A stretch of 64,000 nt of DNA, taken from assembly GCF_010119975.1 (NCBI RefSeq), contig NZ_CP048222.1, positions 6,052,501 to 6,116,500 of the forward strand, written 5' to 3'. This document shows, piece after piece, positions 844 through 22,161 of this stretch; positions within the stretch are counted from its first letter, which is position 1; each line of letters opens with the position of its first letter. Source of the DNA: Rhodocytophaga rosea (GTDB taxonomy: Bacteria > Bacteroidota > Bacteroidia > Cytophagales > 172606-1). The translations under genes were made by a program, and so were the position numbers. The notes beneath the pieces were generated by a model that made no database searches, was not told where the DNA came from, and was given only the letters and a program-made list of their open reading frames with translations.

Positions 844-1145
844 AAGACCCTGTAAAGTTAGTGTTGAAACTTTCCTCAAAGTAGATAGTTCTTCGAGTAA
901 GTTAGAATAAAGTAATATATAGAGTATGAAAATTGGGAGGTACTATCTTTATCTTATCTTTTGAATATCATACTATCAAGTTGAATCCCCTGTAACGATA
1001 TATTGCCCAGTTGGTAAAGCAGGTATATTTATCAACTCAAGTATTTCTGATGCCATAGCTGTTTTCGGAAACAATCACCAAACGTAAGTAGAATATCTAA
1101 GTTCAGTGTTACTATTTCTCCAGGAAATATGGACTTGCAACAAAA
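844..1145. other. AT-rich non-coding or decayed stretch left of the IS
   Basis: No complete gene is visible. Short open stretches, for example around 1099-1145, read like amino-acid sequence but have no start codon and are interrupted by stops. This fits decayed coding DNA cut by the IS insertion, but it cannot be proven from the sequence alone. Confidence 0.3.
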
Positions 1146-1146
1146 T

Positions 1147-1164
1147 TGTGGACAATAAATTAAG
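1147..1164. repeat. IS terminal inverted repeat, orfB-distal end
   Basis: Reads TGTGGACAATAAATTAAG and pairs with 2415-2432 at 15 of 18 positions. The exact outer base is uncertain by one or two nucleotides. Confidence 0.75.
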
Positions 1165-1639
1165 CAACTAACACATATTGATTTAAAAGTTGCTCCATCT
1201 GGGCTGGTGTTCTATATCCCAGAGAGGAATGCAGTCTTTTCCTGTTGTACCAGATTTCTATATATTCAAAAACAGTGGTAGCCGCTTGCTGCTGATGGGC
1301 AAACTTATAATCATATACACATTCCACTTTCAGGGTCTTAAAGAAGCTTTCTGCGACAGCATTATCCCAACAATTCCCTTTTCGACTCATGCTTGGCTTA
1401 ATAAGAGGATATGTACCTAATTCTTGCCTAAATTCATCACAGGCATACTGTATACCCCTGTCTGAATGAAATATTAGAGGTTGGATCACGGGCCTGTTTT
1501 TTATAGCCATTTTTAATGCTGCTATTGTCGTCTCTTTGGCCTTCATGGTTTTACTCAAGGCGAGAGCCAATAATCTTTCTGTCTGCCAAATCCAGTACCA
1601 CCGTAAGATATAGCCAACCTGTAATGGTTCTGATATAAG

Positions 1640-1671
1640 TGGACCCGATGCTGACATCGTCTGCAGGTCCA
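1640..1671 (-). repeat. 32-nt near-palindromic unit inside orfB (copy 2)
   Basis: Read on the minus strand it begins TGGACCTGC and ends GGGTCCA, with a perfect 6-base terminal inverted repeat (TGGACC/GGTCCA) and an inner CGATG/CATCG pair. It matches 27 of 32 positions of the unit at 2107-2138, which lies in the opposite orientation. It follows an Asp codon and adds bases absent from the expected transposase core. Confidence 0.75.
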
Positions 1672-2100
1672 TGTCTGATACCCAGGCCTGACCTGTTGCA
1701 TTAGCTGTAAAATTTCGATCCAGTAGATTTTCACTCACCGGATAGCTATGCTTTGAATCCGTAGTGACCTTATACCTTTTAATTCTTTTTGCCCTAAGCT
1801 CAGCCTGCTTCATTAAGCGGGCAACCCTGGGTCTGGAAACTGAAATGTTATTCGCTTTCAAGGCTTTACTGATTCTTGGGCTACCATAGGTCTGGCCACT
1901 CTCCTTATGGATCACTCTGATCTGTTGAAGAATTTCCCGGTTCTCTGTAGCTCGTTTAGATGGCTCACTGTTTATCCATCCATAATATCCACTTTTACTT
2001 ACTTGAAAGGCTTTGCACATCTTCTCAATGGGGTATACAGTGTGATTATCCTTTATGAATTGGAATATCTCCCATCGTTCCTGGAAAAGATGCTGACCGC

Positions 2101-2107
2101 CTTTTTT
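2101..2107 (-). promoter_or_regulatory. A-AAA-AAG programmed -1 frameshift heptamer
   Basis: On the minus strand the heptamer AAAAAAG lies in the orfA frame as ccA-AAA-AAG, the classical IS3-family slippery site. A -1 slip there enters the orfB frame exactly. It is now downstream of the in-frame TAG at 2116-2118 and probably not reached. Confidence 0.75.
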
Positions 2108-2138
2108 GGACCTGCCTACGTTGTGAGCATCGGCTCCA
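2107..2138 (+). repeat. 32-nt near-palindromic unit inside orfA (copy 1)
   Basis: Read on the plus strand it begins TGGACCTGC and ends GGCTCCA. It aligns without gaps to the minus-strand reading of 1640-1671 with 27 of 32 identities. It sits after an Asp codon in orfA and supplies the in-frame TAG. The two copies are the only ones I noticed in this window. Confidence 0.75.
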
Positions 2139-2414
2139 TATCCCTTTCCATTTCTGCATCCTTTAATGCCTTCTTTAGACGGGCTATTTCTGCTTCTTCA
2201 GGGGTTTGTTTTGGTTTTCCATGGCCAGGAAAACTTCCCTCCCTCTTGTCTAAAAACTCACGGCGCCAGCGATAAATCAATCCAATTTTGATATCCAATT
2301 CTTTAGCCAGATCTACTAAATTTTTTCTGCTCTTACTAAGTTCAACAGTCATTAGTTTGAACTCCTTGTCGAATTTTCTTCTTTGTCCCATTTTCATTAA
2401 GTTAAGTATTTTCT

Positions 2415-2432
2415 CTTAACTTAATGTCCACC
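2415..2432. repeat. IS terminal inverted repeat, orfA-proximal end
   Basis: The reverse complement GGTGGACATTAAGTTAAG matches the other end at 15 of 18 positions. It lies about 18 bases upstream of the orfA ATG, as usual in IS3 elements. Confidence 0.75.
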
Positions 2433-2433
2433 C

Positions 2434-2775
2434 AAATGTAGCAAGATCAGATCAATATACTGCAGAACATACGTAAAGCTGAACAAGTACTGGTAATAAG
2501 TTTCAAATGTATATGAGACTGTATATCCAGGAAGGCAGCAATGAAAAGACCATAGAATGTCAATTTCTGACCGTTTAAATATGGCTCAATTAAAAAAATG
2601 TGTAAATGGCAGAAAGTATGAATATGTAAGTCCAGAGTAAAAACAGGCTTTCTTCCGCTTTGTTTCTTCATTTGTTTCTTACTCTCTTAACATATCAGAT
2701 ACTACCCTTTTGCTTACACCTGGGTTTACCAGTCTCTGAAAGATAGACATATATAGGCAACCATTCTTTTGACTT
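2434..2775. other. Decayed or non-coding stretch right of the IS
   Basis: No complete gene. Short plus-strand stretches (about 2442-2520 and 2507-2578) read like protein but sit in different frames and lack a credible start, which suggests a degraded coding remnant. The minus-strand open frame across this region has no protein-like character. Confidence 0.3.
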
Positions 2776-18232: not shown

Positions 18233-20548
18233 TCATGTACGGATAATACAGAACTTTGGATGTATAAAATGAAACCAATCAATGGGTATGGGATTGTGAA
18301 GCAGAAAACCTGCTGAGGTGGCAAATTTAAATGCTTGTAAATTCAGTTGTTTGAAGCCTTTTTTCTTTTCTTCAATTACAATAAACTGATTGGCAGCTAT
18401 GTTTTCCAGTACTTGTGTAGTTTTGGAAGAAGGCCAGGTGACCTCAATTTTCCTGATCGTATCTGCTGTACCTAATCCGATCTGAGCACGCAGGGGAGAA
18501 CAGCCAAAACTTCCGCCTGAATTCAAATCCCGGTGGATAGTGCGTGTTTTTCCATTGTTTTGGAGGGTAAGTTTAATCCGGCCACCAATTCCGGCAGCAT
18601 TGGAAGTAGTACCTTTGAGCTGAATGGTAATCCAGTTATTGGTATTCTGGTAAGGATTTTCAAACAGTGCATTGCGGAAAATATCTCCTTCATAGGCTCC
18701 TCCCATTACCGCATAAATATCCTGGTCGCCATCGTTATCCAGATCGGCAAAGGAAACAGCATGCCCTTTCTGCAAGTGTCCGAACCCTCCGGCTGTGGTT
18801 ACATCCTGAAATTTTGTGCCATTTTGATTTCGGAAAGCTTTATTGGGAATAATAGAAGCAAAATTCACTTCTCCGGTAGCCAGGTACATATCCAGAAAAC
18901 CGTCGTTGTCAAAATCGCCAAAATTCGCACCCATGGCATAGGTTATCTTCTTTAAACCGACCTGCTCAGATACGTCTGAAAACGTTCCATCAGCATTGTT
19001 GTGGTACAGCCTGGCAGTTTCTGCACCAAAAGGCAAACCCAGGTATTCTGCTGCCACATCTTTGGTAATACTTTCCCAGAACACACTCCGTTGGAAGCCA
19101 GCTACAAACAAATCCAGCCAGCCATCATTGTCATAATCCCAGAACCAGGTAGGAAAAGAGGAAATATTCTCACCCAAACCTGCAGCCTGACTCACATTCA
19201 CAAACTGCGGAATACTATCACGACTTAAACCAGTATTCTTGAATAAAATATTTGGGTTGCGGTCGTCGAGGGCAGAAAGATACAGGTCTGGCCAGCCATC
19301 ATTGTCATAATCCCCGGCAGTAACTCCTTTTACATAATATAGTTCTCCATCTGTGCTTACTTGTACTCCAGCCCGTTTGGCTACTTCAGTGAAAGTTCCG
19401 TCCCGATTGTTTAAGAATAATTCGCAGGGATGAATATTGTCTTCTCCGGAGCTTTCGTTGCCAATAAACAGATCTACCCAGCCATCTTTATTAAAATCCT
19501 GCCAGACACCTGTTTGGGTGGGATGAAAAGAAAGAATACCGGCCTCTTCTGTCACATCAGTGAAAGTGCCATTGCCATTGTTGCGGAGCAGGGAATTTGG
19601 GTGTTTTCCCAAGGTTTCAAGCCAGGCACCTCTCAATACGAATACATCTGTAAATCCATCGTTATTATAATCAGCCTGCACCATATTCAAGCCTCCGGTA
19701 ATGCCGGTAAGTCCGGCTTCCTTTGTTTTTTCTGAGAAGGTGCCATTGCGGTTATTGATAAAGAGCCGCATCTGATGACTAGCTGCCCAGCTGGTAATCA
19801 GAATATCCAGGTAATGATCACCATTAAAATCATCTACCACACTTCCGCCAGCCAGCCGGTTATCATCCAGGCCAAGGTTTGGGGCAATCTCCTGAAAGGA
19901 CTGGAGCGGATATTCTGAGGCAAAAGCTTTGGGCGGAATCAGCCAGCGTTCCGGAACTTTTGTTGGGTATTCGCCGAGGGTCATATAGGCAACATTAAGT
20001 AGCCAGCGGCTGCTATAATCATGGCTGTTATTTTCGAGGATTTTCTGGTAAAGTTCTGTTGCCTTTCTGGAACCTTCCGGTAATTGATGAAAACCAGCCG
20101 GGGCAATCGGTATAATGCAGGAAGCAGAAGTATGGTTTGTAATGCAATTTTGCTGTTCGCCTAGCCGCAGGTAGGATAAGGCAAGGAGGGTAGTAAGCTG
20201 TTCTTCCTGATGAGGTTCAAGACCTTCTACGAATCGGTTTTTGTCACGGATCTGTAACAGTTCTTCCAGAATTTGGATGGATTGTTCGGTTTTTCCACCA
20301 AACAAACAAGATTCTGCCTGTAAAAACCTGAATTTATTCCGTTCCAAGGGAGAAGAAACTTTATATAAGCTATCGAAATGTGCTATTCTGGTTTTGCTGG
20401 CATATATATTAGCAGGCACATAAAATGATTCTCTGGCTGTTTGTTCCAGCAGTGCTACCATGCCTGATTTTTCCTGCTGTTTAACTCCGGGCTTGCAGGT
20501 ACTGAAGAGAATTCCTAAGCAGATAATGAGATAGTGGGATAAGCGCAT
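18233..20548 (-). CDS. FG-GAP/VCBS repeat lipoprotein with ASPIC/UnbV domain
   Basis: A lipoprotein (MRLSHYLIICLGILFSTC, lipid-bearing Cys about 18) of 771 residues. An alpha-helical TPR-like segment (about 50-190) is followed by a series of FG-GAP/VCBS calcium-binding blades (about 230-620) with repeated DxDNDGxxD motifs such as DFNGDHYLD, DYNNDGFTD and DLDNDGDQD, and an ASPIC/UnbV domain (about 650-735: GIGGRIKLTL…SGGSFGCSPLRAQIGLG). These propeller proteins are commonly encoded with SusCD pairs and are thought to bind or process surface ligands. An unusual C-terminal tail of about 35 residues (after FIVIEEKKKGF) is not part of the domain. A terminator-like hairpin separates it from susD. 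Confidence 0.88.
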   Translation of the reverse strand: MRLSHYLIICLGILFSTCKPGVKQQEKSGMVALLEQTARESFYVPANIYASKTRIAHFDSLYKVSSPLERNKFRFLQAESCLFGGKTEQSIQILEELLQIRDKNRFVEGLEPHQEEQLTTLLALSYLRLGEQQNCITNHTSASCIIPIAPAGFHQLPEGSRKATELYQKILENNSHDYSSRWLLNVAYMTLGEYPTKVPERWLIPPKAFASEYPLQSFQEIAPNLGLDDNRLAGGSVVDDFNGDHYLDILITSWAASHQMRLFINNRNGTFSEKTKEAGLTGITGGLNMVQADYNNDGFTDVFVLRGAWLETLGKHPNSLLRNNGNGTFTDVTEEAGILSFHPTQTGVWQDFNKDGWVDLFIGNESSGEDNIHPCELFLNNRDGTFTEVAKRAGVQVSTDGELYYVKGVTAGDYDNDGWPDLYLSALDDRNPNILFKNTGLSRDSIPQFVNVSQAAGLGENISSFPTWFWDYDNDGWLDLFVAGFQRSVFWESITKDVAAEYLGLPFGAETARLYHNNADGTFSDVSEQVGLKKITYAMGANFGDFDNDGFLDMYLATGEVNFASIIPNKAFRNQNGTKFQDVTTAGGFGHLQKGHAVSFADLDNDGDQDIYAVMGGAYEGDIFRNALFENPYQNTNNWITIQLKGTTSNAAGIGGRIKLTLQNNGKTRTIHRDLNSGGSFGCSPLRAQIGLGTADTIRKIEVTWPSSKTTQVLENIAANQFIVIEEKKKGFKQLNLQAFKFATSAGFLLHNPIPIDWFHFIHPKFCIIRT

Positions 20549-20570
20549 AGCAACTACTAGTTACAAAAAT

Positions 20571-20597
20571 AAAAAGCTCTTTCAAATGAAAGAGCCC
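20571..20597 (-). terminator. terminator or attenuator between susD and the UnbV gene
   Basis: Inverted repeat GCTCTTTCA-AA-TGAAAGAGC (20576-20595). On the minus strand it is followed at once by TTTTTATTTTTG, so it has the form of an intrinsic terminator placed after susD; it may lower expression of the downstream gene. Confidence 0.65.
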
Positions 20598-20631
20598 TTT
20601 ACAGTTTACGACAAATAAATGTTTGATAGAG

Positions 20632-22161
20632 TTAGTAACCAGGATTCTGGTCACTGTTTTCCAGCTGGCTGTTGTTATCTATTTCTGCAAGCGGAATCGG
20701 TAGTAATTCATGCTTGTTCACCTGGAAGCCAGCAATAGGTTCTGTAGTAAGCTTATTTTGTTTTCTCCAGCGGCGGATATCCCGGTTACGGATTTGTTCA
20801 CCACCCAGTTCTACCCGTCTTTCGTGTACAATCGCCCGGAACATTTCTTCTTTTGTATTCGCAGGATACTGTGCTGTTGGATAAGCAGGCATAGCTACAC
20901 TGGTTCTGGCTCTCACCTGGTTAATGTAGGGAAGTGCCGCAGCAGGTCCGGTAAGTTCATTCTCGCATTCTGCCATCATCAGCAGTACATCTGCATAACG
21001 GATTACCCGGAAGTTAATTCCGGAGCGGGAGTTTTCGGTCGTACGCTTGTAAATCATCTGGTATTTTTTCCAGCTGGGTATATTCACATTGCCCTGCACA
21101 TCCGTATTGGTCAGTGTATTCTGGTCGTTGTTAAATTTATCTCCTATGTAGTAAAAAGAATCTGCCCTGCGGGGATCATCTTTTGCTGCACCATTGGCAA
21201 CCCTTTCAAATTCAGCGACCAGGCTAGCAGAAGGAATCACATTCCGCCAGGCATTGGGGCCATATTCCTGGCCACGGAAAGTAACTTCGGCAATATCACT
21301 GCCATCTGCATTCCAGGCACCAGCGTCGCCAAAGGCTTCGGTAAACTGTACCTCAAATACTGATTCACTGTTGAACTCATTGTCTTCCCGGAAGTTATCC
21401 AGAAAATTAGGAATCAGGCTGTACTGGCCAGAAGTGATCACGGCATTGAGCAGGGGACGCGCTTCTGCATAATTACCTCTGAACATATGGATTCTGGCGG
21501 CCAGGGCTTGTGCCGCTCCTTTGGTAGCCCTGCCCAGGTCGGCGCCTGTATAATTCAGCGGAAGGTTGGCTATAGCCGTATTCAGGTCTTCAAAAATCAC
21601 TGCATATACTTCATCTTCTGAAGCTGAACGCCCCATATTTTCACCAGGTGTGGATGCTACTTTTGTCATGAGCGGCACTCTTCCCCACAAACTCACCAGT
21701 TCGAAGAATGCCCAGGCACGCAGAAATCTGGCTTCTCCCTCGATTCTTGCTTTCAGCGCAGGACTTACCAGTACATCATCTGCTTTAGGCACATTCTCAA
21801 TTACCAGGTTTGAGCGGTGTACCATGCGGTATAAACCCCGCCATACGGAATTTACAAGTGGATTGGAGGCATCAAATACGTGGTTGAGGATCTGCCCTCT
21901 GGGTGCTTCCAGCTGCGGGCCTCCAGACGAACAATCATCAGAAAGCAGGTCGTGTACGAAGAAGTATTCCCGGTTGTAGAGGTCATTTGCTTGCAAGCCT
22001 GCATACACAGAGTTGATAGCAGCCACCGCCTGTGGTTCGTTCTTATAAAATGTTTCAGTGATCAGTTGACTAGGATTGGTATCTTTATCGAGCACATTTT
22101 CATTACAGGACGAACCGAGAACAAAAACGGTAGTTATCGTTAATAATATTTTATTTCTCAT
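20632..22161 (-). CDS. SusD/RagB-family outer-membrane lipoprotein
   Basis: SusD proteins form the lid over a SusC barrel and capture oligosaccharides or other polymers at the cell surface. The 509-residue product has a lipoprotein signal (LGSSC, Cys about 19), a SusD-like N-terminal region (about 20-230: TETFYKNEPQAVAAINSVYAGLQ, ARFLRAWAFFELVSLWG) and the RagB/SusD C-terminal domain (about 270-509: FRVIRYADVLLMMAECENEL, LPYINQVRAR, RRVELGGEQIRNRDIRRW). It follows susC by 37 bases in the same direction and must form the complex with it. Confidence 0.95.
   Translation of the reverse strand: MRNKILLTITTVFVLGSSCNENVLDKDTNPSQLITETFYKNEPQAVAAINSVYAGLQANDLYNREYFFVHDLLSDDCSSGGPQLEAPRGQILNHVFDASNPLVNSVWRGLYRMVHRSNLVIENVPKADDVLVSPALKARIEGEARFLRAWAFFELVSLWGRVPLMTKVASTPGENMGRSASEDEVYAVIFEDLNTAIANLPLNYTGADLGRATKGAAQALAARIHMFRGNYAEARPLLNAVITSGQYSLIPNFLDNFREDNEFNSESVFEVQFTEAFGDAGAWNADGSDIAEVTFRGQEYGPNAWRNVIPSASLVAEFERVANGAAKDDPRRADSFYYIGDKFNNDQNTLTNTDVQGNVNIPSWKKYQMIYKRTTENSRSGINFRVIRYADVLLMMAECENELTGPAAALPYINQVRARTSVAMPAYPTAQYPANTKEEMFRAIVHERRVELGGEQIRNRDIRRWRKQNKLTTEPIAGFQVNKHELLPIPLAEIDNNSQLENSDQNPGY

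Follow-up and report, generated by a model that had tools for sequence, protein, structure and literature searches.

Very small fold elements, dispersed among the transposase genes of Rhodocytophaga rosea and some of its close relatives, very likely form a genuine set that is apparently undescribed. Two of them lie in one IS3-family element of the window, the 64,000-nt stretch of the R. rosea genome analyzed here, and others interrupt transposase genes of several further insertion sequence (IS) types, often at the same conserved sites and usually in a way that breaks the reading frame. Many of the interrupted genes remain conserved at the codon level, and some of the elements have multiplied. 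From these sequence patterns, we put just short of an even chance on very short mobile fold elements whose damage would be masked, most likely by ribosome bypassing and otherwise by removal of the fold from the RNA.

Two Related Units in One IS3 Element

The IS3-family element occupies window positions 1130–2449 on the minus strand (1,320 bp), and its imperfect terminal inverted repeats (approximately 1130–1164 and 2415–2449) can be read directly from the sequence. It is present in 8 copies at eight places in the 8.98-Mb R. rosea genome, seven of them identical over the 1,260 nt compared and the eighth differing by a 1-nt deletion, and the flanks of these recent copies show no clear 3–4 bp target duplication. 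The orfB unit, TGGACCTGCAGACGATGTCAGCATCGGGTCCA in gene sense, lies at 1640–1671 on the minus strand, at WVSD/ITY (a slash marks the place of a unit), and adds a net 29 nt; the unit at the end of orfA, TGGAGCCGATGCTCACAACGTAGGCAGGTCCA in gene sense, lies at 2107–2138 on the plus strand, at ERD/ILKK, and adds a net 27 nt. An earlier sequence-only reading had described the pair accurately: the two units match at 27 of 32 positions (84%) without gaps, are placed in opposite orientation, and each follows GA(T/C)-A in gene sense, as GAC-A in orfB and GAT-A near the end of orfA.

That reading had also held both units to be extra DNA, and had proposed an alignment of intact copies, which indeed places the insertion points. 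Two IS3 relatives, L041 (from genome position 7,654,500) and L042 (from 130,000), read DILKKAVSIF at the orfA site; at the orfB site L041 reads WVSDLTYIKT, and an alignment of L042 with L041 shows no insert there. Both sites are thus empty in relatives within the same genome, and both window units are therefore extra DNA. L041, which has neither unit, keeps its orfA and orfB frames open, and its empty WVSD/ITY site is filled in other IS3 copies.

The two units affect their genes differently. The orfA frame (2116–2397, minus strand; 93 aa; HTH_Tnp_1 domain) stops within its unit, at a TAG that the unit introduces directly ahead of an A AAA AAG stretch. The orfB frame (1160–2020, minus strand; 286 aa; HTH_21 and rve-type domains) stays open only through the combined effect of the +29 unit and a lone +1 base downstream of it, which together restore the frame. 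This base, a C at approximately 1561–1568 on the minus strand, is common to all 8 copies and sits 79 nt beyond the orfB unit when the window element is compared with L041, so that some 26 codons between unit and base are out of frame.

Distribution of the Unit Family

The proposal that the two units represent a tiny dispersed palindrome that had entered one IS twice is borne out by searches of wider scope: the units recur across many IS families, four genomes contain them, and empty sites exist. Within the window, the common pattern (≤3 mismatches) matched twice, while 100 dinucleotide shuffles averaged 0.00 matches. The genome search that the same reading had suggested gave 26 matches with this pattern and 43 with a looser variable-gap pattern in R. 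rosea, and the backward-read control gave 0 in each case. A covariance model built from 25 units returned at least 55 matches in R. rosea (E ≤ 1; 150 of 2,954 candidates were scored, and the weakest rows may be chance). At the same threshold there were 12 matches in a genome of the same genus (G001), 18 and 46 in two further unit-bearing kin genomes (G002 and G004, respectively); four other family members gave at most one match apiece.

The exact pattern occurred in 4 of the 59 genomes searched, R. rosea among them. One strict 30-nt pattern, run against 84,980 species in a scan that may leave out R. rosea's own genome, was found only in R. aerolata KACC 12507 and in the Cytophagales MAGs YX1bin7 and YX2bin28. 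A similar unit pattern had 0 matches in the viral_contigs set, and on this result spread of the units by viruses was rejected.

Transposase Genes and Sites Occupied

Of the 55 model matches listed for R. rosea, 50 fall inside or border on a region similar to an IS3, IS1182, or IS5 transposase. Three further matches, at 8,969,103 (L037) and at 2,419,116 and 2,419,585 (L082), are transposase-like by eye, and another lies directly behind the L037 transposase-like gene. The match at 7,601,227–7,601,256 (L084; E 0.002) is unplaced, and the ORF there has neither a Pfam match nor a match to the IS proteins compared.

Across the genomes, the transposase genes in which units were found are of IS3, IS1182, IS5, IS630, IS66, IS21, and IS91 types, and most of the sites involved are conserved and used repeatedly. 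In the kin genomes, where placement of units is partial (L147 and L231, for example, are unread), a profile search on the pieces of interrupted genes gave DDE_3, IS66, Y2_Tnp, DDE_Tnp_1, and an rve/HTH protein. We take DDE_3 to denote the IS630 type and Y2_Tnp the IS91 type, and the rve/HTH protein looks like IS21. For profile naming, IS5 was scanned with its unit in place, and IS1182 and IS3 were named via unit-free relatives. Sites recur across IS copies and species, and many of them coincide with conserved blocks: WVSD/ITY, RQT/YGSP, RVAR/LMK, GN/CYDNA, the D block of IS630, and the VER/AWLN block of IS5. Judged by eye, several unit sites fall at blocks that are presumably catalytic (D/ITY, H/HSDRG, VCL/DERPC, VT/DNAPYH, and VER/AWLN). 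A unit may lie either way round with respect to its gene, and we therefore infer that shape, and not the sequence of one strand, would be what is recognized.

Two loci in kin genomes show more complex arrangements. In the IS91-type transposase L090 (G001 contig 116), a second hairpin, GTGGATC..GATCCAC, apparently lies upstream of the unit and shifts the frame. In L139 (G004 contig 153, at about 71,620), the IS3 orfA site is joined via a single unit to the later LATWMD/YSR site, an arrangement that could have come about by recombination between two units of one IS with loss of the intervening DNA.

Host genes gave a different picture within the small sample compared. In 14.1 kb, made up of the 8 blocks that matched best when 20 kb of the window were compared with R. 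aerolata, no such insert was seen; these blocks are 67–78% identical, and their net length differences are solely 0, 3, or 6 nt. Between the blocks, at approximately 20,176–20,632 of the window, a stretch is 26 nt longer in R. aerolata contig C44.

Inserts Across IS1182 and IS3 Copies

For IS1182 we aligned 9 full-length copies from two species and 4 partial ones (L051, L204, L206, and L208). The fragments L207 and L209 were left out, as were the duplicates of L051 (L203) and of L181 (L185, L188, and L191). Three full-length copies (L182, L192, and L200) are insert-free and have open frames. Relative to the intact L182, the other six hold 20 inserts of net 16–47 nt and no other frame-breaking indel, L198 alone carrying 8 inserts; apart from the inserts, the full-length copies show just one indel, 3 nt missing from L181 and L192. 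Eight of the 10 insert sites are used in at least 2 of the 13 aligned copies. The aligned stretch of the partial copies contains one insert in L051, two each in L204 and L206, and four in L208. Other lesions comprise one nonsense codon each in L186 and L051 and a 1-nt deletion plus stops in L204 and L206; stops at codon 382 (L189, L201, L204, L206, and L208) and codon 152 (L198) are at insert junctions and were counted with the insert.

IS3 copies show the same pattern. Compared with L041, L089 has 3 inserts without other frame-breaking indels and L060 and L109 have 5 inserts each, while L035, L043, L061, and L093 have inserts plus other lesions, and L038 and L040 each have one unit and two 1-nt indels. 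In-frame stops number 3 in L035, 4 in both L061 and L093, and one each in L038, L040, and L043.

Insert lengths show little regard for the reading frame. Of the 15 distinct pairs of site and length in IS1182, 3 are multiples of 3; IS3 has 6 among 20 (9 of 35 over the two families), the IS3 count omitting inserts shorter than 15 nt and two unclean L093 inserts of 67 and 17 nt. A rule by which the net insert is always 2 mod 3 is untrue in these counts. The wider set of hairpin and pseudoknot inserts is mostly net 16–56 nt, again usually not a multiple of 3, and besides the GGACC units it includes the types TTGACC..GGTCAA, CTGAGC..GCTCAG, and GGAGC..GCTCC. The L198 copy (G001) has hairpin families of unrelated sequence at sites 419, 454, 705, and 739 of one gene (TTGACC..GGTCAA, CTGAGC..GCTCAG, and CGGATG..CATCCG), each at its own site. 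At site 870 of the same copy the unit is 48 nt vs. 28–30 nt elsewhere, with a much longer loop and the same conserved ends, and at IS3 site 764 of L043 a 56-nt insert resembles one class X unit (see below) nested inside another. We also considered a junction rule in which one T is replaced by the unit; it fits IS1182 sites 303 and 870 and IS5, fails at sites 705, 739, and 1145, and was set aside as a rule.

Folding and Covariation

One unit class, here called class X, has the form GGACCT-P-Q-P'-AT-Q'-AGGTCC. Its P/P' and Q/Q' pairings cross, and the fold would therefore be either a pseudoknot or two alternative hairpins. In the search pattern, 3 nt per P arm and the entire Q arms were free to vary. 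Thirteen distinct sequences were collected (one orientation each), of which 12 were tested in groups of 7 and 5, the 31-nt one being left out. In the group of seven, 98% of cells are paired and 5 pairs are changed on both sides, a result reached by 0 of 500 shuffles; in the group of five (the 32-nt form), 1 of 500 shuffles reached the covariation score and 52 of 500 the number of pairs changed on both sides. These shuffles do not control for relatedness, and the fold was proposed from some of the tested sequences. For the class to which the window units belong, the consensus fold combines a short inner stem with an outer stem that is conserved, none of its pairs is changed on both sides, and covariation is weak (38 of 500 shuffles in the 28-nt subset). 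Among 32 inserts, 21 fold better than simple letter shuffles by more than 1 standard deviation and 11 do not; the window orfA unit folds no better than its shuffles.

Selection on Interrupted Genes and Multiplication of Copies

Codon comparisons in IS1182 and IS3, which exclude the codons around each insert site, indicate that interrupted genes have been conserved. Among the six full-length unit-bearing IS1182 copies, dN/dS was 0.093–0.166 in 15 pairs, vs. 0.137–0.176 in 3 unit-free pairs; across all IS1182 pairs with enough codons it was 0.059–0.217. Copy-specific changes likewise showed no relaxation (N 66 and S 44 in unit-bearing copies vs. N 34 and S 19 in unit-free ones). In IS3, dN/dS was 0.06–0.20, except for L060 and L035 (0.43), L035 being a decaying copy. 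Some IS1182 inserts are shared by sister copies, namely L198 and L204 at site 1300 and L201 and L206 at site 1145, with 96% tree support for each pair; dN/dS was 0.17 and 0.21, respectively, and L204 and L206 bear other lesions. Furthermore, units are more conserved than their flanks. At site 1145, all 29 of 29 inserted nt are identical among L189, L201, and L204, for which pairwise dS is 1.13–1.54, and at site 870 L181 and L051 have an identical 30-nt unit at a dS of 0.84.

Interrupted elements have also multiplied. There are 8 copies of the IS3 element, 4 of an IS1182, and 7 of an IS5, each with one identical unit set. In the multiplied IS1182 copy no ORF spans the inserts. The IS5 unit is of another kind: at +27 it is in frame and open in all 7 copies, and needs no masking.

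How Might Interrupted Transposases Be Expressed?

On the reading that we prefer, gene-less fold elements (hairpins or pseudoknots of about 15–50 nt) occupy recurring transposase sites in many unrelated IS families of the Rhodocytophaga group. A ribosome that meets such a fold would release and then resume beyond it at low efficiency, much as in yeast mitochondrial byps and T4 gene 60. Alternatively, the fold might be cut from the RNA by an RNA nuclease and a ligase; we regard this route as less likely because bypassing needs no extra machinery. One transposase would in this manner be assembled from up to nine disjointed pieces. Transposases, in contrast to host genes, are needed in tiny amounts, so that low efficiency would be tolerable, and this would explain why units are found almost only in ISs.

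That the damage is masked, by what mechanism, and how units move are all matters that we infer, and we consider the chances roughly even that masking takes place after transcription. Frame-blind lengths, conserved folds, insertion at conserved codons, the conservation of the genes that harbor the units, and the near-restriction to low-demand genes favor masking of a byps-like kind. Decaying unit-bearing copies, the weak covariation in the class of the window units, and an orfA unit that folds no better than shuffles, on the other hand, count against masking. Skipping by ribosomes, which the sequence-only reading had raised with caution, is now the best single reading of genes that are conserved and yet interrupted, but the window element itself fits it poorly: the +1 base found in 8 of 8 IS3 copies restores the orfB frame if ribosomes read straight through and would disrupt that frame if they bypassed the unit. 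Take-off and landing codons were unmatched where checked by eye, and the junction codon is often changed. Loss of bL9 loosens bypassing in E. coli; bL9 is present in 10 of 10 genomes, and its loss was rejected as a cause of loose decoding.

A distinctly possible, if somewhat doubtful, alternative is that the hairpins are mobile and unmasked and simply inactivate transposases, the copies being dead or moved in trans and the conservation reflecting a recent insertion wave. Intact unit-free relatives are present in the same genome (IS1182 L200 and IS3 L041), and their action in trans, or a recent wave, could also account for the conserved genes; several unit-bearing copies do have additional lesions, and identical units in diverged copies could mean recent spread. 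Such a history is harder to reconcile with a copy that has 8 inserts and no other frame-breaking indel, with sites shared by sister copies, and with unrelaxed dN/dS, all of which speak for a long life with inserts. Moreover, class X units have diverged with compensatory changes and therefore are not all recent, and the full-length DNA match ranking next after the 8-copy IS3 is only 68% identical to it and itself bears a unit in orfA.

It seems improbable to us that a host or rival-element system writes the hairpins into catalytic and other conserved motifs of transposase genes in order to silence them. The location of nearly all placed units in transposases, several of them at blocks that we presume to be catalytic, and the lack of units in the 14.1 kb of other genes compared would suit such a system. 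However, the single identical unit set in all copies of each multiplied IS3, IS1182, and IS5 is what insertion before amplification would be expected to leave, and many sites are non-catalytic (the orfA end, RVAR/LMK, and YGSP). Less probable still is that the units are in general tolerated coding insertions, translated as extra amino acids in the manner of Rickettsia palindromic elements. The open IS5 unit would suit this reading, as would L148, whose frame runs for 421 aa through the unit, and for IS5 the explanation may hold. As a general account it is refuted because multiplied copies carry inserts that disrupt the frame: few insert lengths are multiples of 3, the multiplied IS1182 has no spanning ORF, and the window orfA ends inside its unit.

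Relation to Known Systems

The masked mobile folds that we prefer resemble the byps of Magnusiomyces capitatus mitochondria, described at 81 positions in 12 of 15 genes (PMC5009743). Both are short, frame-disrupting extra blocks, many per genome, in otherwise conserved genes. Sites of the units are filled or empty from copy to copy, and one unit type can be found in several IS families. Unlike byps, the units reside in a bacterial chromosome, so far almost solely in transposase genes, and are known here from sequence alone; the main unit classes also differ from byps in their conserved outer stem, GGACC/GGTCC, and one class in its covarying inner folds. In T4 gene 60, a folded 50-nt insert between codons is skipped by ribosomes (PMC5009743). 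That gap is one fixed instance, in which GGA codons match and the nascent peptide provides a signal; matched codons were not seen in the units. For Prevotella loescheii, a 29-nt hop within an adhesin gene has been reported, and a review describes follow-up as lacking (PMC5009743). This species likewise belongs to the Bacteroidota, and 29 nt is a common net insert here, but the hop is one case and concerns an adhesin gene.

The other kinds of element that the sequence-only reading had offered as candidates agree less well with the units. REP sequences are multicopy palindromic repeats of 20–40 bp (PMC3733652). They are extragenic, whereas nearly all placed R. rosea units are within or abut transposase matches and usually break the frame, so a REP-like identity is a poor fit. 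A link to REPs and their RAYT proteins was set aside as doubtful, given that the distribution of Y1_Tnp genes does not clearly track the units: such genes occur in 6 of 8 genomes, namely all four unit-bearing ones and two in which the exact pattern is absent, G006 and G007. Rickettsia palindromic elements lie in frame inside the coding sequences of ordinary genes and are about 100–150 nt long. The units, by contrast, are 15–50 nt, mostly break the frame, and sit in transposases, being in frame only singly (e.g., in IS5), and this identity too suits them badly. The MITE-like option stands loosely, in the sense of a small mobile palindrome; against it, no target duplication was seen in the filled and empty sites compared, nor any transposon end on the unit. 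Group I or II introns and inteins were set aside on general knowledge for the size of the units (15–50 nt). A search of open-licence literature returned no report of such inserts in ISs, nor any of Rhodocytophaga transposases.

Implications

Mobile bypass elements, either skipped or excised from RNA, might form a population in the chromosomes of Rhodocytophaga and its close kin, the first such known in bacteria. It would comprise dozens of hairpin and pseudoknot inserts from several sequence families, at recurring transposase sites in at least seven IS types; we give this claim somewhat less than an even chance. If the units are skipped, bacterial ribosomes beyond those serving phage T4 would routinely bridge long gaps, the few bypassing cases known would become many more, and the units would constitute natural, comparable test pieces for bypassing. 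If they are not skipped, they would still be apparently undescribed minute mobile folds, so far almost only in transposase genes, and would point either to a new route by which ISs are silenced or to how interrupted ISs keep multiplying.
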